From assembly GCA_002395905.1 (NCBI GenBank), contig DGVK01000159.1, positions 897-20,910 of the forward strand: 20,014 bases of DNA, given 5' to 3'. This stretch comes from Verrucomicrobia bacterium UBA4286. GTDB lineage: Bacteria > Verrucomicrobiota > Kiritimatiellia > RFP12 > UBA1067. Made by a program: the position numbers and the translations under genes. Shown piece after piece: positions 2,991 to 20,014 of this stretch (position 1 is its first letter; each line of letters starts with the position of its first letter). The notes beneath the pieces were generated by a model that saw only the letters and a list, made by a program, of their open reading frames with translations, searched no databases and was not told where the DNA came from.

Positions 2991-3389
2991 CTATGCGAGG
3001 CCTATCTCCCTCTCTTGTTCGCTCCAGAGGTCGCTCTTGATGTTGAAGAGCCGCTCGGTCGAGAAATCGTCCGGGAGTTCCTTGGCTATGACCGCACGGA
3101 GTATCTTCGGCGAAAGATTGGCGAGGCGGAGGACGCGAACCACGTATGGTCGGTCCATCTTCAACCCCTCCGCAAGCTCCTTCACGTCGGCGAACGCCCC
3201 GCTTTCGAGAAGCCGTGTCCATTCCCGTGCGCGGGCGAACAATCGTATGAGCGTCCCCGATTCGTCAAGGTCGATGTCGTTCACCTCGCCTTGCCCGACG
3301 ACGACGAGCCGCCTGCGTCCGCAGACGGTCTGAAAGCGGATCGGAATCGATACTAGGACGTTCCCGTCTTCAGTTTCCATGATGTTCAT
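2991..3389 (-). CDS. Small helix-turn-helix protein of the recombinase module
   Basis: This 132-residue protein has a likely DNA-binding helix-turn-helix at about 66-100 (ADVKELAEGLKMDRPYVVRV, then LRLANLSPKILRAVI), resembling the KorB/ParB-type HTH. Small proteins of this pattern commonly lie directly after DUF2924-recombinase pairs, especially in alphaproteobacterial prophages; this is from memory of the gene order, not a search. The N-terminal 45 residues look like a short beta-rich segment. GGAGGAG lies seven bases before the ATG at 3389. The gene overlaps the end of the recombinase gene by 20 bases, so the two are probably translated together. A role as a directionality factor or regulator of the recombinase is plausible but unproven. 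Confidence 0.8.
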   Translation of the reverse strand: MNIMETEDGNVLVSIPIRFQTVCGRRRLVVVGQGEVNDIDLDESGTLIRLFARAREWTRLLESGAFADVKELAEGLKMDRPYVVRVLRLANLSPKILRAVIAKELPDDFSTERLFNIKSDLWSEQEREIGLA

Positions 3390-4665
3390 TCTTGAACTCC
3401 TCCATGAGGCGTTTGTCGCCCTTTACCTTAAACTTTATGTCGACGGACGATTCGTAGACCGTCACGGTTTCTATGATGCTTGAGAGCAGTTCGCGCTTGG
3501 CGACCGGCGTCAGGGACATCCAGAACTCCTCCGGCGAGTCGAGCTGCCTCCGCATCTCGAAAGGAGAGATGTGGCGTTGCCCCGCGAGGGCGCGGAGCAT
3601 TGTCGGGGTCTTCAGGAACGCGACCGCCTCGGACTCGACAAGTGGTTCGATAAGTTGCGCCGGGACGGACTTTACCGAGCAGGTCGAGACTCCTCGCCTC
3701 ATGTCCTTTCGGCAAGTGTAGTATCCGTAGCGGATTTGCCCGCTACGGTTCTTGCCAGTCCAGGTGTAGGAGAGCGCGTCGCCGCAATGCCCGCAGCGGA
3801 GAAGGCCGGTCAGCAGCGCCGGAGAGGTTGCGCGCCGCTCCGTCCTCGGTTTGAACTCGACGGTCTTCAGCCGAGCCGCCACCTTGTCCCACAACTCCAT
3901 GTCGATGATTGGTTCGTGTATTCCCTTGAAGGACTCGTTCTTCAACGGGACACGCCCGATGTAGACGCAGTTGCGGAGCGCTGTCGCGACCATTACCGTG
4001 TCGAACGGCTTGTTCCTCTCAGGGAAACGGAGTATGCCGTTCTCGGTGAGACGCTTGGCGACGAGCTTTGGCGTTCCGAGTTCGAGATACCACTCGAAGA
4101 TCTTTACGACGTTCGGAGCCGTGTCAGGATCGACGACGAGCCGCTTTTCGATACGCTTGTAGCCGTATGGCACCGTCCCACCCGGCCAGAATCCCTTGCG
4201 CCTCGTCGCCGCCATCTTGTCCGACGTGCGTTCTGATGCAAGCTCCCGCTCGAACTGCGCGAATGTCATGAGGAGGTTCATGCACATCCTCCCCATCGAG
4301 GTCGAGGTGTTCAGCTCCTGCGTGACACACGAGAACGAGACGTGGTGCTTCTCCAGCTCGTTGAAGACCTGCGTAAAGTCCAGGAGCGAGCGGGAGAGTC
4401 GGTCGATCTTGTAGCAGACTATCATGTCCACAGAGCCGGCGCGGACATCGTCCATCAGCCTCTGGAACGCAGGGCGCTTCAAGTTGCCGCCGGAATAGCC
4501 GCCGTCGTCGTAGCGGTCGGGAAGGCACATCCAGCCTTCGAGACGCTTAGCGGCGATATAAGCCTCGCAAGCCATCCGCTGGGCGTCAAGCGTGTTGAAC
4601 TCCTGTTCCAGCCCCTCCTCCACGCTCTTGCGCGTGTAGATTGCGCACCGTGTCACCTGCTGCAT
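3370..4665 (-). CDS. Large serine recombinase (site-specific integrase)
   Basis: This enzyme probably integrates and excises the element by cutting all four strands and rotating them through a serine-linked intermediate. The 431 residues hold a resolvase domain (about 5-150) with nucleophile S14 in YTRKS and the DRLSRSLLDF motif with conserved arginines at 88-97. A recombinase DNA-binding domain follows (about 165-265). A zinc ribbon comes next (about 288-345), with C291/C294 (CGHC) and later C318 and C329. It is shorter than phiC31-type integrases, with little of a long C-terminal coiled coil. GGAGG precedes the ATG at 4665. Its start overlaps the DUF2924 gene by 13 bases and its end overlaps the HTH gene. 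Position at the element edge supports the integrase role. Confidence 0.94.
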   Translation of the reverse strand: MQQVTRCAIYTRKSVEEGLEQEFNTLDAQRMACEAYIAAKRLEGWMCLPDRYDDGGYSGGNLKRPAFQRLMDDVRAGSVDMIVCYKIDRLSRSLLDFTQVFNELEKHHVSFSCVTQELNTSTSMGRMCMNLLMTFAQFERELASERTSDKMAATRRKGFWPGGTVPYGYKRIEKRLVVDPDTAPNVVKIFEWYLELGTPKLVAKRLTENGILRFPERNKPFDTVMVATALRNCVYIGRVPLKNESFKGIHEPIIDMELWDKVAARLKTVEFKPRTERRATSPALLTGLLRCGHCGDALSYTWTGKNRSGQIRYGYYTCRKDMRRGVSTCSVKSVPAQLIEPLVESEAVAFLKTPTMLRALAGQRHISPFEMRRQLDSPEEFWMSLTPVAKRELLSSIIETVTVYESSVDIKFKVKGDKRLMEEFKNEHHGN

Positions 4666-6693: not shown

Positions 6694-8358
6694 TCAGAAC
6701 AGCGGATTGCGTGAATGTGTTTTACAGTAATGTTCCCGGTAGAGTTCGTTTGGGATTATTCGCCAGTAGAACAAGCCGTCGTTGCGGCGCTCTATCTGGA
6801 GTTGCTCGTCGCGGAACCGCGTGTAGGGCTTTCGCTGGAATACTCCTCGCCAGTTCTCTCCCTTTGGCGGTCTCACCCAACCTTCGCTCTTTTTCTTTCC
6901 TGCCGCCGCAATGAGGGTCTTGATGACTTTTGCGGCGGATGGCTTGAGGTTGATGTATGGTTCCGTAGCGCATCCTGGGACAACCTGCTCGTCGACGGCG
7001 ATGGTTTTGTAGTCCCTTGTCATTGCGAACCGATACGCCCTGAGGGGCAGCGCGGCGATATCTACTGTCGTGGGCTGAATGTCGGTTTTGACGGTCGCTG
7101 CCCTGGGCTTCTTCGGCTTTATGCATCTTCTCGGTGCGTCTGCAATGTTCAGCGTGGCAAGTAGTTCTTTCAATGTCTTCACGTCTAGAACGTGCGGCTG
7201 GTCATCCACGCCGACGAACTTCGGGAACAGAAGCCAGCAGGACTCCGATGAAAGGTCGCGCACGATTTTCGTCGGGACTGGCCGCATGCTTTTTGCGTAT
7301 GCGATCAGATTGGTCCTTATGGCGTACCACAGCTCGGCGACTTCTGCCGAGTCGCAGCGCGCAACTGCATAGTCTGACGAAGCCTGACCTTTCCACAACT
7401 CCCTGACAAATTTCGCGTATTGTGGTTGGGTGAACAGGAATTCGCCTTTCTGCGAGTTGCTGCAGGCGGCATCCACGACGGCTGCAAGGCTTTTCAACGC
7501 CGGCAGCAACTTGTTTTCACGCTTGCCGCAACGCGTGCTTCCATCTATGGAACGTTCAGCCGCCATCAAGGACACTGCCTCGACCATCGCATCCGCCATT
7601 GCGTCCAATATCGGGCGGCTCTCGCGGAGCGTCCATCTCCCATCCGCCCTCTTGTAGCAGCTAAGTGCCTTGAGCCAAAGGTCTTTTGCACAGGAGCCCC
7701 TTTGGACTGCCGCCTCGGCTCCCTTTTCGAGGTATACCAGCGTGGACTTCCTCGCTCGCTCAATGCTGGCTCCAAGCCGGTGCGGTCCGTGATGGCATGT
7801 CACGAAGACGCGTTCCCCGTTCGGGAGGGTCTGTTCCATTGTGTCGTTGCGCCAGTCAGGCTTGTCGTCTATGTGGTAGTCGCAGGTGTCGTCGTCGAAT
7901 GACAGTATCTCGGGGACGGCTCTTTCCCATTGCTGCGCAATGCCGTTCGAGACAGGCGTTCCGCCTCTTTCCAGTTCGGCGGCGGCATCTTCAAGTGTGC
8001 TCGATATCAAGTCTATGAAGAACGGCCAGGGCTCGGACTCTTCGGCATCGGTCTTGTGCCTGTCGGCGCAGAAGACGCTCAGTTCCACAAGACTTCGGAT
8101 GCGCGACAGCTTCTCGGATTCGTTACGCGCATCCTTCTCCTTCAGCATGAGCGTCGCTGCGTCGTTGCGGTCGAGGATGCACTCCGCCGGCACGTCCGTT
8201 ATGTAGCGGCTTCCTCTCTCAAGGCAGAATCCGCTGGCGGTGCGCTTGCCGTCCGAGGACGAGAGGACTTCTGCGTTCTGCAGGAAGCGCGGGCAGGTGT
8301 CTATGTCACAGGCCGTGCCGTGGCGAGGGCAGAGGACGAAAACGTCAGACTTCTCCAT
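6694..8358 (-). CDS. Unknown 554-aa protein with cysteine-rich N-terminus and putative C-terminal winged helix
   Basis: I do not recognise this protein. The first 45 residues carry C10, H13, C17, C22 and C45 (VLCPRHGTACDIDTCPRFLQ), a possible metal-binding site. The middle is helical and acidic. The last about 100 residues, with FAMTRDYKTIAVDEQ, then LKPSAAKVIKTLIAA and a basic RRNDGLFYWRI, look like a winged-helix DNA-binding domain. That is a fold guess from pattern only. The ATG at 8358 is preferred over one nine codons earlier because AAAGGAGC precedes it. It overlaps the 461-aa gene by 14 bases, so the two are probably co-translated. No signal peptide or membrane segment is visible. Confidence 0.8.
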   Translation of the reverse strand: MEKSDVFVLCPRHGTACDIDTCPRFLQNAEVLSSSDGKRTASGFCLERGSRYITDVPAECILDRNDAATLMLKEKDARNESEKLSRIRSLVELSVFCADRHKTDAEESEPWPFFIDLISSTLEDAAAELERGGTPVSNGIAQQWERAVPEILSFDDDTCDYHIDDKPDWRNDTMEQTLPNGERVFVTCHHGPHRLGASIERARKSTLVYLEKGAEAAVQRGSCAKDLWLKALSCYKRADGRWTLRESRPILDAMADAMVEAVSLMAAERSIDGSTRCGKRENKLLPALKSLAAVVDAACSNSQKGEFLFTQPQYAKFVRELWKGQASSDYAVARCDSAEVAELWYAIRTNLIAYAKSMRPVPTKIVRDLSSESCWLLFPKFVGVDDQPHVLDVKTLKELLATLNIADAPRRCIKPKKPRAATVKTDIQPTTVDIAALPLRAYRFAMTRDYKTIAVDEQVVPGCATEPYINLKPSAAKVIKTLIAAAGKKKSEGWVRPPKGENWRGVFQRKPYTRFRDEQLQIERRNDGLFYWRIIPNELYREHYCKTHSRNPLF

Positions 8359-15742: not shown

Positions 15743-17848
15743 ATGGCTACAATACCCGTCGCAACGGCAATGGCGTATCTTGCCGCAGGCCTCTCGTGCC
15801 TTCCCGCAGCAAAGGCGAAGAAACGTCCCTCGATAGGCGGCTGGAAAACATGGCAGACACGGCTCCCGACGAGGGTCGAGGTCAAGGCGTGGTTTTCCAA
15901 CCCGCATGACGCGATATGTGTGGTTTCGGGGAATGTCTCCGGGAATCTGGAGTGCATGGACTTCGACCAGCACGGCGAGCTCTTCGCCGCGTGGATGGAC
16001 AAGATAGACACGGAACTCCTGGCGAAACTCGTCATCGAGCAGACCCCGAGCGGCGGCTACCATGTGTTCTACCGCTCGGACGAGCCGGTGGACGGCAACC
16101 TGAAGCTGGCACGCGGCATCCGCGACGGCAAGGAGAAGACGCTTATCGAGACCCGTGGCGAGGGAGGCCTCTTCCTCTGCGCTCCCACCGAGGGCTACAC
16201 GCTCCAGCAAGGCGACTTCGCCAATCTCGCGGTTATACCGCCCGATGCGCGGAAAGCCCTCCTGGACGCCGCACGTTCGCTCGACGAACTCCCTGCGGCA
16301 AACTGCCCGCCCGTCCCCGCCGGAGGCGAGACGGGCGGTTTTCGCGCGGTTTGCGGCGAAGCCCGCGACAACGACCGCTGGGAGCAGTTTCCCGGCGACG
16401 ACTACAACGAACGCGGCGACTTCCGCGCCCTCTTGAAATACTACGGCTGGCAGTACGTCCGCACACGGCCAGACCGGAACGAAGACTGGACACGCCCCGG
16501 CAAAGACCCGAAAAGCGGCATATCCGCAACGCTCAAGGACGGGTGCTTCTATGTGTTTTCGTCGAACGCCGCCCCGTTCGAGCCGCAGATAAAGTACAGC
16601 CCGTTCGCCATCTACGCGACGCTCTGCCACCACGGCGACTTCACCGCCGCCGCAGGCGACCTCGCCAAACAAGGCTTCGGCAAGGCGCGCTACGTCGCAA
16701 ACGAGGTGACCTTCAACCTGAACGGCGAGAAAGTCACCGTGGCGATGCCGGAGAACCCCGCCATGAGGAAGAAGCGGCGCACACTGGAGGAGCTGGACGA
16801 GGAGTTCCCCGAACTCCACAAACCGCTGATACACGGACTTCTGAGGGAAGGAGAGACTATGAACGTAATCGCCGCGCCGAAGACGGGCAAGAGCTGGCTC
16901 GTCATGAACCTCGCCCTTGCCATCGCGCTCGGCAGGGACTGGATGGGCTTCCCCTGCGAACAGGGCAAGGTTCTCATCATCGACAACGAGCTGCATCCGA
17001 ACACGACCGCATACCGCTTCCGCTCAATGCTCGCGAAACTGGGCATCCCCCGCAGCGCGGTAAACCCGTTCCTGCACATCGAGAACCAGCGAGGGATGCT
17101 TGAAACGATCCAGAGCCTCTCGGCGCAGATAGAGGAGCTGAGGAAGGAGGACTACAAGCTCATCATCATCGACGCGTTCTACCGCGCTGTGCCGCAGGGC
17201 ACGAACGAGAACGACAACGGCTCGATAACCGCCCTCTACAACCTCCTCGACCGCTACGCGGGCACCCTGAACAGCGCCTTCGCCCTCATCCACCACACGT
17301 CCAAGGGGAATCAGTCGCAGAAGTCGGTGACGGACGTGGGAGCTGGCGCGGGAGCGCAGTCCCGCGCCGCCGACACGCACCTCGTCCTCCGCCCACACAA
17401 GGAAAAAGGCGTCATTGCGGTCGACTGCGCTGTCAGGTCGTTCGCCCCGATCCGCCCGTTCTGCCTGCGGTTCGACTGGCCCGTCTGGTATCGGGACGAC
17501 GACCTCAACCCGGAGGATCTGGAGGGCAAGGCGGAGGCGAGGCCGCACCGCAAGACCGCCGAGGAGATTGTGGACGAGATCGAGGCACTCGCCCTGAAGC
17601 TGCCGGAGCTTGTGGAGCCTGACAATCTGCGGCCGACGAAGTTGTTTGTGGTCGAGATCATGAAGCGCTACGGCTGTTCGAGGGATACGGCGAGAGACGC
17701 TCTGAGCCGCGCCCTCGCGGATGGAACATTGCTTGCGGAGCGCCGGAAGAACATGCCCGTCGCCCTGCGCGGGGCGAAGTTCGTTGTCACGCCGGAACTA
17801 TCCGAGTCGGATTGCATGGAGGAGGTGGATGATGGTAGCGCGGAGTGA
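15743..17848 (+). CDS. Primase-polymerase fused to RepA-like ATPase (replication protein)
   Basis: The 701-residue protein starts with a bifunctional primase-polymerase (Prim-Pol, AEP) domain, about 5-160. Its motifs are KKRPSIGGWKTW, the metal-binding MDFDQ with D73 and D75, and GGYHVFYR with H107. A middle part (about 215-330) is less clear. An AAA_25/RepA-like ATPase follows, with Walker A AAPKTGKS (377-384) and Walker B LIIIDAFYR, the aspartate at 477. The C-terminal 100 residues include the helix-turn-helix-like VEIMKRYGCSRDTARDALSR. Such proteins prime and unwind DNA for phage or plasmid replication. AAAGGAGG precedes the ATG at 15743. It lies directly before the candidate origin, whose first hairpin arm overlaps its last codons. 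Confidence 0.92.
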   Translation: MATIPVATAMAYLAAGLSCLPAAKAKKRPSIGGWKTWQTRLPTRVEVKAWFSNPHDAICVVSGNVSGNLECMDFDQHGELFAAWMDKIDTELLAKLVIEQTPSGGYHVFYRSDEPVDGNLKLARGIRDGKEKTLIETRGEGGLFLCAPTEGYTLQQGDFANLAVIPPDARKALLDAARSLDELPAANCPPVPAGGETGGFRAVCGEARDNDRWEQFPGDDYNERGDFRALLKYYGWQYVRTRPDRNEDWTRPGKDPKSGISATLKDGCFYVFSSNAAPFEPQIKYSPFAIYATLCHHGDFTAAAGDLAKQGFGKARYVANEVTFNLNGEKVTVAMPENPAMRKKRRTLEELDEEFPELHKPLIHGLLREGETMNVIAAPKTGKSWLVMNLALAIALGRDWMGFPCEQGKVLIIDNELHPNTTAYRFRSMLAKLGIPRSAVNPFLHIENQRGMLETIQSLSAQIEELRKEDYKLIIIDAFYRAVPQGTNENDNGSITALYNLLDRYAGTLNSAFALIHHTSKGNQSQKSVTDVGAGAGAQSRAADTHLVLRPHKEKGVIAVDCAVRSFAPIRPFCLRFDWPVWYRDDDLNPEDLEGKAEARPHRKTAEEIVDEIEALALKLPELVEPDNLRPTKLFVVEIMKRYGCSRDTARDALSRALADGTLLAERRKNMPVALRGAKFVVTPELSESDCMEEVDDGSAE

Positions 17849-18104
17849 AAATAACGCCGCACGACCATACCAAAACCAGGTCGCGCGAGGTCGCGCGGAA
17901 TCACGCCGCGCGACCTGCAAAAAAATCATCCGAAAGGCCCCCGGCAGAGGTCGGGAACGGGGGCTTGGTAGGTAGCGCGGCGGGGGCTTACTACGTAAAA
18001 GCCCCGCCGCACGACCTACAGCCCCCGTCCCTCGTCCGCCCTCTGCATACGGCCAGACGGACGGGAAAAACGACAAATCCCCGCGCGACCTGCCGCGCGA
18101 CCTG
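17832..18104. other. Candidate iteron-type replication origin or structured RNA
   Basis: This gap between the primase-ATPase and the second RepA-like gene contains an 11-12 bp motif, CCGCGCGACCTG, in both directions. Inverse copies lie at 17878-17887 and 17888-17898, a forward copy at 17906-17917, and two exact tandem copies at 18081-18092 and 18093-18104. One-mismatch copies lie at 17970-17980 and 18007-18017; a degenerate pair is at 17833-17843 and 17857-17867. Three related hairpins result: A (17832-17868), C (17888-17916, 11 pairs) and B (17957-18028, with ACGGGGGCT/AGCCCCCGT as outer stem). A further outer pairing GCAGAGG/CCTCTGC encloses B. An 86-codon reading frame here is low complexity and I do not believe it codes. 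Confidence 0.6.
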
Positions 18105-18131
18105 AAACACCAAAACGAAAGGAACCCAGAC

Positions 18132-18869
18132 ATGGAAATCCCAAGACCCAAATCCCTGCGCGAACTCGTCAGCGAAAACCGCGACAGCCGCAAGTCCGTC
18201 GTTGACGGACTTCTCCGCCCAGGCGAAACCCTGAACATAATCGCGCCTCCCGGAACGGGCAAGAGCAGACTCGCCCTCGCACTTGCCGTCTCCGTCGCTG
18301 CGGGCATCCCCTGGATAGGACGCCGTTGCGAACGGGGCAAAGTCCTCGTCGTAAGCACAGACCTGTCGGAGAGAATGCTCACGGAGCGGATGAGCCGCGA
18401 ACTTGAAAGGCTCCGTCCCGGCGACAGGGAAGCCGCCCTCGCAAACATCGACCTCCTCGACATGAGCCGTGCGGAAAGGCTGTCCGCACCTATCGAACGT
18501 TGCCTCAATCTTGCGGATGCCAAGGGCTATAGCCTCATCGTCGTGGATTCCCTCAACGGCCTGACGGCGGACGAGGCCGGGACTGAACGACGCGGCGAGG
18601 CGTTGGCAGTCCACGACGCAATCGACGAGTTCGCGGCGGAAAAGAACAGCGCGTTCGTTCTCGTCCAGCACAAGACAACGGAAAGAACTGCTGACATCAT
18701 CGACGACCTCGCCTCTGCGTGGACTGCGATTGCCGCCGACAGCAACCTCGTCCTTCTGCCCGCTACAGGCAATGACGAATGCAGGTTTTGCGTGACGACG
18801 CGTTCTTTCGACGATGCGCCTCTTCAGACGCTCCGCCGCGCCCTCTGGCGGATGCTGCGGGCCAAGTAG
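18132..18869 (+). CDS. RepA-like AAA_25 ATPase, stand-alone
   Basis: This 245-residue protein is a RecA-fold ATPase like hexameric replicative helicases of the RepA type. The Walker A is APPGTGKS (38-45), the Walker B is LIVVDS (135-140), and the conserved FVLVQHKTT follows at 175-183. It is a paralogue of the ATPase half of the protein ending at 17848: GETLNIIAPPGTGKS aligns with GETMNVIAAPKTGKS, and both continue to a GKVL strand. AAAGGAAC precedes the ATG. It lacks the primase and the C-terminal helix-turn-helix, and lies just after the candidate origin, as expected for an origin-loading helicase. Confidence 0.88.
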   Translation: MEIPRPKSLRELVSENRDSRKSVVDGLLRPGETLNIIAPPGTGKSRLALALAVSVAAGIPWIGRRCERGKVLVVSTDLSERMLTERMSRELERLRPGDREAALANIDLLDMSRAERLSAPIERCLNLADAKGYSLIVVDSLNGLTADEAGTERRGEALAVHDAIDEFAAEKNSAFVLVQHKTTERTADIIDDLASAWTAIAADSNLVLLPATGNDECRFCVTTRSFDDAPLQTLRRALWRMLRAK

Positions 18870-18874
18870 TAAAA

Positions 18875-19117
18875 GCGCCGGCCGCCTCGGGAAACGAAAA
18901 CCGTTGGGGGAAAGGCCCCAAAAGCACCCGAGGCGGCCGACGCGGGACAGTATGCCATAACCGGCGAGGAGAAGTCAACGGCCAAAAGCGAGAGAAAATC
19001 CCCACTGGGCGGCGGGATTCGACTCGCCTGGGGCGGGTGGGACGTTATGTCCCACCGAGGCCACGGTTCCTCCCTGAACCCCCTCAAAAGGCAGGGCGCG
19101 GGAAGGAGCCAGGCTCC
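18875..19117. other. Series of inverted repeats upstream of the methyltransferase
   Basis: The 294-base gap holds no convincing gene but several hairpins. The longest is a 17-pair stem with one mismatch, 18875-18891 with 18927-18943 (core GGCCGCCTCGGG/CCCGAGGCGGCC), enclosing TTGGGG/CCCCAA at 18904-18921. Then follow GGTGGGAC/GTCCCACC (19036-19056), GGTTC/GAACC (19065-19080) and GGAGCC-A-GGCTCC (19105-19117). None is followed by a T-run on the plus strand, so a simple terminator is unlikely. It may be a leader RNA, an attenuator or a second protein-binding locus. Confidence 0.5.
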
Positions 19118-19163
19118 AGGGCAGACTTTCTTTCACTGACGTAATTTTTCAAGGAGGCCATAA

Positions 19164-20014
19164 ATGCCAACAAAACAAAGGGAATTGACCTATGCGACTG
19201 TATGTAGCGGGATCGAGTGCATGAGCGCGGCGGTTGCGCCGCTGGGCGGGTGGAAACCGGTGTTCTTCAGCGAGATCGAGCCGTTCCCGTGTTCGCTACT
19301 AGCGCACCGCTACCCCACCGTCCCCAACCTCGGGGACATGACGAAAATCAGGGCCGAGATAATCGGCGACGAGAAATGGAGGATCACGAATGGAACAGAT
19401 GTCATTGAACTTGCCGGGCGTCTCGATGTCCTCGCCGGCGGGACGCCGTGCCAGGACGTCTCGGTCGCGGGAAAGAGGAAAGGCATGGCGGAAGGCAGCG
19501 GCACCCGCAGCTCCCTTGCCTTCCACTTTGCGCGACTTTGTCGTGAGCTACAACCTCGATGGGTCGTATGGGAGAACGTGCCGGGAGTTCTCACCAGCAA
19601 CGGAGGGCGCGACTTCGCGCACTTCGTCCGCTCGATTGGGGAATGCGGGTATTCTCTTGCCTACAGGACTCTGGACGCTCAATGGGTGCGAGTGGACGGG
19701 CTGCCCAGAGCGGTTCCGCAGCGGCGACGCAGGGTTTGGCTCGTCTGTATGCGGACTGTCGGACATACTGGAGACGGTTGGCGAGCACCTGCGGAAATAC
19801 TGTTTGAGCCTCAAGGCGTGCGCGGGGATACTCCGCCGCGCCGCGTCACGGGGCAAGGATTTACCCGCCCGCCTAAAGACGGCTCTCGTTGCGCAGATAG
19901 CCCGCTTCCGACGAACTCAAACGGCGGCGACGTGATGCCCGCCCTGACCGCCCGCGACCTTGAGGCAAGACTGACGGGGCAGGCGGAAAAGAGCGGCGGC
20001 TACGTCGTCCAGCC
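19164..20014 (+). CDS. DNA C5-cytosine methyltransferase (cut by window end)
   Basis: The first 283 residues of a cytosine-5 DNA methyltransferase are in the window, and the frame is open to the end. Motif I is the AdoMet-binding YATVCSGIECMSAAV (10-24), motif IV is AGGTPCQDVSVAG with nucleophile C96, motif VI is WENVPGV with E137, and motif VIII is PQRRRRVWLV (185-194). The target-recognition part and motifs IX and X would follow outside the window. AAGGAGG precedes the ATG. No restriction endonuclease is visible, so it may be an orphan enzyme that protects element DNA or marks replication sites; the target sequence cannot be read from this. Confidence 0.92.
   Translation, partial: MPTKQRELTYATVCSGIECMSAAVAPLGGWKPVFFSEIEPFPCSLLAHRYPTVPNLGDMTKIRAEIIGDEKWRITNGTDVIELAGRLDVLAGGTPCQDVSVAGKRKGMAEGSGTRSSLAFHFARLCRELQPRWVVWENVPGVLTSNGGRDFAHFVRSIGECGYSLAYRTLDAQWVRVDGLPRAVPQRRRRVWLVCMRTVGHTGDGWRAPAEILFEPQGVRGDTPPRRVTGQGFTRPPKDGSRCADSPLPTNSNGGDVMPALTARDLEARLTGQAEKSGGYVVQ

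Follow-up and report, generated by a model that had tools for sequence, protein, structure and literature searches.

Iterons and hairpins behind a Prim-Pol/RepA-like helicase gene: a probable origin of replication in a prophage or phage-like element

INTRODUCTION

Among the closest described systems is the Sulfolobus plasmid pRN1, in which a stem-loop of ~100 nt lying 3′ of the gene for the initiator, the Prim-Pol helicase ORF904, is needed for replication (PMC4234260). Within the pRN1 family the structure of this stem-loop is conserved and its sequence is not, and the authors extend the scheme to phage BIP-1 and its near-identical kin, noting that they have no direct evidence of it acting as an origin; the pRN1 helicase is of the SF3 type, and iterons are absent according to the authors (PMC4234260). 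In RSF1010, RepC acts on iterons, RepA unwinds and RepB′ primes at small hairpins (PMC4234260). The origin of PICIs lies directly 3′ of rep, with two sets of iterons flanking an AT-rich site (PMC6092414), and the alpha protein of P4 is a primase-helicase whose winged helix binds repeats and whose primase is of the Toprim type (PMC4234260).

Here we analyze an array of repeated hairpins for which an earlier reading of the sequence alone (the sequence-only reading) had proposed an origin function.

RESULTS

The initiator gene and its surroundings

The window, i.e. the whole 20,014-nt stretch of DNA analyzed, sits in C224, a contig of the 2.37-Mb host assembly (82.6% complete), and the named relatives of its genes carry the label Kiritimatiellae (features in Table 1). 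The genes neighboring the array form a phage replication/recombination module. A related 51-kb phage contig (57% primase identity) encodes a terminase large subunit, a portal and a tape measure protein, which speaks against a satellite; the element in the window is itself cut by the contig end. At 2349–2607 and 3370–4665, three consecutive tRNA genes lie near genes for a serine recombinase, a DUF2924 protein and a sigma-like protein, and this region is a possible integration end of the element.

The primase is a fusion of a Prim-Pol domain, an RSF1010-RepA-like helicase and a C-terminal winged-helix-like domain. Its helicase is RepA/DnaB-like, with a fold nearest to that of RSF1010 RepA, and is not SF3. 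The C-terminal domain (residues ~600–701) is modeled with fair confidence as three helices and two strands, and gives a weak GntR match below the cut-off. Assignment of the N-terminal Prim-Pol fold rests on Pfam, because that half of the model is of low confidence. Together these domains give a single chain what look like all three RSF1010 activities. A protein search found 3,532 primases homologous to this one. At one related locus (L046, ~7800–7938), the primase frame seems broken before the C-terminal domain, and the array and hairpins remain.

For the shorter ATPase encoded downstream of the array, a search of 5.8 billion proteins yielded ten clusters of relatives, its own included, and the structural model has low confidence (mean pLDDT 65.6). 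Locus L037 has no such gene in the gap that separates the array from the conserved element after it. The gene for this second ATPase is an insertion, and a rare one. The sequence-only reading had set the array between two ATPase genes; what stands is that the array follows the primase. The RepA-like neighbor does not define the arrangement: among 161 genomes from the order, only two, G000 and G130, have it at full length.

Table 1. Positions of the array, its hairpins and the adjoining genes in the window
Feature	Position	Strand	Remarks
Prim-Pol / RSF1010-RepA-like helicase / C-terminal winged-helix-like initiator gene, 701 aa	15743..17848	+	
Hairpin H1 (A of the sequence-only reading)	17832..17868	.	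Two head-to-head iterons; overlaps the primase stop codon
Repeat copies, + strand	17833, 17878, 17888, 17970	+	
Repeat copies, − strand	17857, 17906, 18007, 18081, 18093	−	
Hairpin H2 (contains C of the sequence-only reading)	17877..17917	.	Pair of direct iterons, offset by 10 bp, opposite a single inverted copy
Hairpin H3 (B of the sequence-only reading, extended), ~80 nt	17953..18031	.	Iterons 17970 and 18007 in the arms; palindromic tip
CTGCATACGGCC element	18043..18054	.	Downstream of H3
Two direct iterons, 12 bp apart	18081..18104	−	Outside local hairpins; 27 bp upstream of the ATPase start codon
245-aa helicase-domain-only ATPase gene	18132..18869	+	33% identical to the primase helicase domain; in this lineage, located after the array and before the small RNA
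Candidate ~75-nt small RNA gene	18868..18943	−	Ends in a T run; reads toward the array; not needed for the main claim

Repeats and hairpins of the array

At least seven copies of an 11–12 bp motif had been reported in both directions; we find nine copies of MGGTMGYGCGG (≤1 mismatch) within 17833–18103, in both orientations, and refer to this as a GGTMGYGCGG-type repeat. The exact sequence CCGCGCGACCTG occurs three times (17906–17917, 18081–18092 and 18093–18104). Direct copies are offset by 10 bp (17878/17888) or 12 bp (18081/18093). The best 9-mer in the 273-bp stretch has nine copies, a number reached in none of 500 dinucleotide shuffles, which gave at most five. Across the whole window, 14 matches to the 11-mer were counted versus 7.0 expected, and 14 was reached in 2 of 100 shuffles; it is thus the clustering that makes the repeat striking. 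Beyond H3 lies the CTGCATACGGCC element; GCATACGGC is also present in L037 and L169, giving 3/62 loci in all.

Folded as DNA, the 277-nt array has z-scores of −7.9 (+ strand) and −9.6 (− strand), and H3 has z-scores of −5.4 and −6.9, with 0/200 shuffles as good on either strand in both cases. The outer arms of H3 (17955–17965 and 18020–18029) extend its stem to about 17953–18031. Inside lies a palindromic tip, GGGGCTTAC..GTAAAAGCCCC, whose AT content amounts to just one short TTACTACGTAAAA stretch; an AT-rich palindrome is seen in L169 and L037. We regard H3 as a candidate melting/priming site.

The sequence-only reading described common AGC/ACG mismatches in hairpins A (17832–17868) and B (17968–18019), with differing outer pairs (ATGGT/ACCAT versus TAGGT/ACCTA), and perfect pairing in hairpin C (17888–17916). 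All of this is borne out. Its step from compensatory change to a conserved fold is less secure, two hairpins alone being weak evidence, and draws its support from the cross-lineage data given below. The A·G and C·A mismatches fit degenerate recognition of the halves GGTAGCGCGG and GGTCGTGCGG, and equally a conserved internal loop. Outside the motif, complementarity between neighboring inverted copies is 0.37 (outer) and 0.41 (inner), compared to 0.33 and 0.35 for distant copies. The excess is slight, so that the inverted order of the motif itself accounts for much of the pairing. Selection on the fold, over and above the inverted sites, is suggested only by the lineage-wide presence of large hairpins. 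When H3 was aligned across lineages with MAFFT, the arms were too gapped for a pair-by-pair count of covariation.

Host genome and close relatives

The sequence-only reading had raised the alternative of a palindromic repeat scattered at random through the intergenic DNA of the host. In the 2.37-Mb host assembly, exact CCGCGCGACCTG is confined to the array, which speaks for that alternative being wrong, and no second copy of an H3 arm was found (≤3 mismatches). The exact 12-mer has three forward copies in the genome, all in the array, and the reversed control pattern has four, which are scattered; hence it is where the copies lie, and not how many the genome has, that departs from chance.

Relatives with the same gene pair were also expected to keep the motif, and they do: among the records found with a readable gap (L010, which is identical to the window, L009, L011 and L041/L209), small edge changes are seen. 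A nearly identical array is carried by L041/L209 and by three IMG/VR contigs, one of which does not differ from the window. In four close relatives, 1/98 motif positions are variable versus 16/199 others (P = 0.015). The close relatives are 95.8–100% identical over 16091–19186 (adjoining blocks, 81–88% in the non-identical ones) and for this reason cannot show covariation.

This 16091–19186 block runs from inside the primase gene to beyond the small RNA. Over it, L009, L011 and L013 are 95.8–96.5% identical to the window, with both flanks at 81–88%; from such sequence comparisons, it appears that a unit made up of initiator helicase, array, ATPase and small RNA is exchanged as a whole. Nearly the same module is found at L209 (G130), in a different genus of the family to which the window belongs, suggesting movement between host genera.

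The same place in distant relatives

We collected 130 post-primase regions of ≥400 bp, of which 66 remained after a loose 14-mer filter that keeps some close pairs (L154/L156, L133/L134/L139). Removal of four regions with <41% identity gave a set of 62 loci, used for the folding, motif-copy, stem, mismatch and tip counts.

Where primases are 41–62% identical, the stop codon is often followed by repeats of other sequence, again in both orientations. Motifs vary by lineage (GGTCGCGCG, TTAGTTTTG, GTTTTGCGG, GCGGAACAA; after distant primases also CTGATTTG-like, GTGGAAAAC and others), and what recurs is the layout, repeats plus a large hairpin. The best 9-mer repeat exceeded all 15 of the region's own shuffles in 41/66 regions, and such an excess was absent in the other 25. 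At least six copies of one motif are present in 35/62 loci. Motif copies number 370 in 26,040 bp of gap versus 301 in 635,436 bp elsewhere, a 30-fold rate that is inflated because the motif was chosen in the gap.

Strongly structured DNA (z < −3) directly follows the primase stop in 49/62 loci, compared to 9/106 other non-coding gaps in these same loci; the remaining 13 post-primase regions lack structure at this threshold. For loci having two or more other gaps, the post-primase gap is the most structured in 29/34. Long near-perfect stems were found in 39/62 loci and in 0/62 coding controls, centered at a median of 111 bp past the stop (search span, +20 to +330). The hairpin tips group into a small number of sequence types. 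The tip CCCCTAAAGGGG, on either strand, is present in 11/62 loci and 0/62 controls, and a CCCCCCATACCCCC tract lies beside the large hairpin in 12/62 loci (e.g. L123, L143, L145) and 0/62 coding controls. The layout thus recurs, with turnover of the motif.

To relate repeat to protein, we correlated motif similarity with similarity of the C-terminal domain, controlling for the helicase core. The partial r was 0.23 (0/2000 permutations; n = 34), and 0.27 with near-duplicates removed (21/2000 permutations; n = 14). For these figures, L046 was excluded, as its reading frame breaks in the C-terminal part, and relatedness is removed only in part. The effect is modest, and its direction is that expected if the primase domain reads the repeats. 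On these sequence comparisons, the primase-helicase with its winged-helix-like C-terminal domain appears a likelier binder than the RepA-like neighbor.

Small RNA and downstream block

Across 11 aligned loci, 4 of the 13 pairs in the stem of the candidate small RNA are changed on both sides. On the − strand it is preceded by a promoter-like TTGACT-18-CATACT (18978–18949), and this promoter-like sequence, TTGACTT..TATGGCATAATGT, is strongly conserved. The window scan gave no Rfam match for the small RNA. Our RNA model R1 (E ≤ 0.001) matched 6 of the 59 genomes of the genus, four of them sources of training rows and two weak. Over 37 chosen loci, each of its 16 strong matches falls on a training row or a near-copy of one, 10 of the 11 weak matches come from these stems read on the other strand, and the planctomycete-type loci included gave no match. 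By its position, the small RNA may be comparable to the oop RNA of lambda.

A second conserved non-coding block lies at 19065–19134 (+ strand; GGTTCCTCCC..GGGCGCGGGAAGGAGC..AGACTTTCTTTC; 16 distinct sequences), before the next gene. Judged by eye, the genes that follow blocks of this type differ between loci; that of the window is Dcm-like.

Cultured phages and GC skew

From 207 phage records with distant primase homologues, we chose eight cultured phages. The DNA following the gene is strongly structured in four (z from −4.0 to −6.1), weakly so in one (KYD2, −2.4) and unstructured in three (Cellulophaga phi40:1, Athena and Ligma). Enterococcus phage EFC-1 and Arthrobacter phage Karkharias each have six motif copies plus a large hairpin, these being raw counts without shuffle comparison; the EFC-1 motif has eight further copies in the other 6.3 kb. 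In 7/8 phages, the next annotated gene begins ≤43 bp away or overlaps. It seems that the layout is neither universal among Prim-Pol phages nor limited to uncultured ones.

The cumulative GC skew of G161 and G162, which represent one lineage, has its minimum ~4 kb from the array. No matching turn was seen for G163 and the window.

DISCUSSION

Like pRN1, the element in the window combines a Prim-Pol initiator with a large stem-loop directly 3′ of its gene (H3 here; 39/62 loci), and the C-terminal winged helix of the pRN1 initiator may have a counterpart in our winged-helix-like domain. Unlike pRN1, with its SF3 helicase and, by its authors' account, no iterons, the window has a RepA/DnaB-like helicase and iterons that form hairpin arms; by the helicase test, the element is not of the pRN1 type. 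One study reportedly treats pRN1 as a rolling circle replicon.

RSF1010 has the nearest helicase fold (RepA) and a comparable scheme of iterons plus primase-recognized hairpins, as outlined in PMC4234260. There, however, three proteins do what a single chain would do here, the iterons are separate from the ssiA/ssiB hairpins rather than merged with them, and the primase domain is of another kind (Pfam Prim-Pol in our case). The rep-ori of PICIs and SaPIs also places the origin directly 3′ of the initiator gene and has two iteron sets flanking the melting site, with iterons shown per element (PMC6092414); the center there is AT-rich, whereas here its place is taken by a long hairpin, which in the window is GC-rich, and the initiators differ. 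None of our results assigns the element to the PICIs. P4 alpha, with its ori/crr, likewise joins a primase-helicase to a repeat-binding winged helix (such binding is predicted here) but has, according to PMC4234260, a Toprim-type primase. By analogy, the element may work like a blend of RSF1010, PICI and pRN1 origins. In the open-licence PMC literature (titles and abstract starts), we found the layout described nowhere except in the pRN1 work. Its kind is a variant of the initiator gene with adjacent origin, in which the merger of iterons with the stem-loop and the breadth across phyla may be new.

We put the probability at roughly three in four that the array at 17832–18104 serves a prophage or phage-like element as its origin of replication. 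The origin proposal of the sequence-only reading is in this respect largely supported, activity being a matter of inference, by like arrangements with other motifs, located after primases of this kind in further lineages. The product of the upstream gene would be the initiator, its C-terminal winged-helix-like domain binding the GGTMGYGCGG iterons. The RSF1010-RepA-like ring helicase could then open the DNA at the array, and H3, exposed by strand parting or extruded by supercoiling, might serve as the loading place for the helicase ring and the priming place for the Prim-Pol domain. Binding by the primase, melting and priming at the hairpin, and the start and direction of replication are what we infer; the repeats, the hairpins, the domain content and the recurrence of the layout with motif turnover are observed.

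An autoregulatory operator, at which the primase or a different regulator would act on expression of the ATPase and of genes further downstream, with the hairpins incidental to inverted sites, could explain why two direct copies (18081–18104) sit just upstream of the ATPase start, outside the local hairpins. Yet L037 lacks the ATPase, has its next gene ~500 bp away and still keeps the repeats and large hairpin, and an operator needs no ~100-nt stem with its own palindromic tip. As the sole explanation we think it unlikely, and an operator role may exist in addition to origin function. An RNA element (3′-UTR hairpins with a role in stability or termination of the primase mRNA, or else some structured RNA) would account for the overlap of H1 with the primase stop, and the folding z-scores are strong on both strands; there is also one terminator-like call, on H2 on the − strand, and none on H3. 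Against this, stem mismatches comprise 23 G·T and 24 A·C, an absence of asymmetry between strands, and T runs are present after the long stem in 0/39 loci, with an A run before it in 2/39. Because of this lack of wobble asymmetry and of T runs, a DNA element is favored over an mRNA element or terminator, and we rejected an intrinsic terminator on the T-run count. Rfam at the gathering threshold, moreover, matches only three tRNAs in the window, and two motif copies are outside local hairpins. We judge a role as RNA to be very unlikely.

Inverted repeats are common near phage genes, and some other cis site, such as a partition centromere or a packaging site, would be in keeping with this and with a weak ParB-HTH match at 2991–3389, below the cut-off. 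Against this, the array was found beside the primase in one lineage after another, and motif similarity tracks the C-terminal domain of the primase itself; we give such a site little credence. The GTAG at the foot of H3 and the mismatched stems resemble REP elements, and the genome has one sub-threshold Y1_Tnp match; these are the points in favor of a REP/MITE-kind host-wide palindrome that landed here by chance. With the exact motif found only here in 2.37 Mb, no second H3 arm at ≤3 mismatches and other repeats holding the same position in other lineages, that idea is scarcely credible, and a host repeat of the REP/RAYT kind was rejected for want of dispersed copies in the host genome.

Beyond the origin reading itself, we tentatively propose, with doubts that slightly outweigh our confidence, a distinct and widespread class of phage origin. 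In this class, the arms of a cruciform-capable hairpin of ~100 nt would consist of lineage-specific iterons, and the hairpin would lie 3′ of an initiator uniting Prim-Pol, RepA-like helicase and winged helix in a single chain (the three proteins of RSF1010 in one). Repeat and DNA-binding domain would change together, and, in a branch of the Kiritimatiellae, a small RNA would point toward the hairpin. Related cultured phages, e.g. Arthrobacter phage Karkharias, make the origin reading testable. If true, it would allow origins to be predicted in many phages, as yet uncultured, from Kiritimatiellota, Planctomycetota and related bacteria, by a rule that requires no sequence match, namely to look just past a Prim-Pol/RepA-like gene. 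It would also bridge iteron origins and the stem-loop origins of the pRN1 kind, so far described apart, and provide a naturally occurring set of matched changes in an initiator domain and in the site belonging to it.
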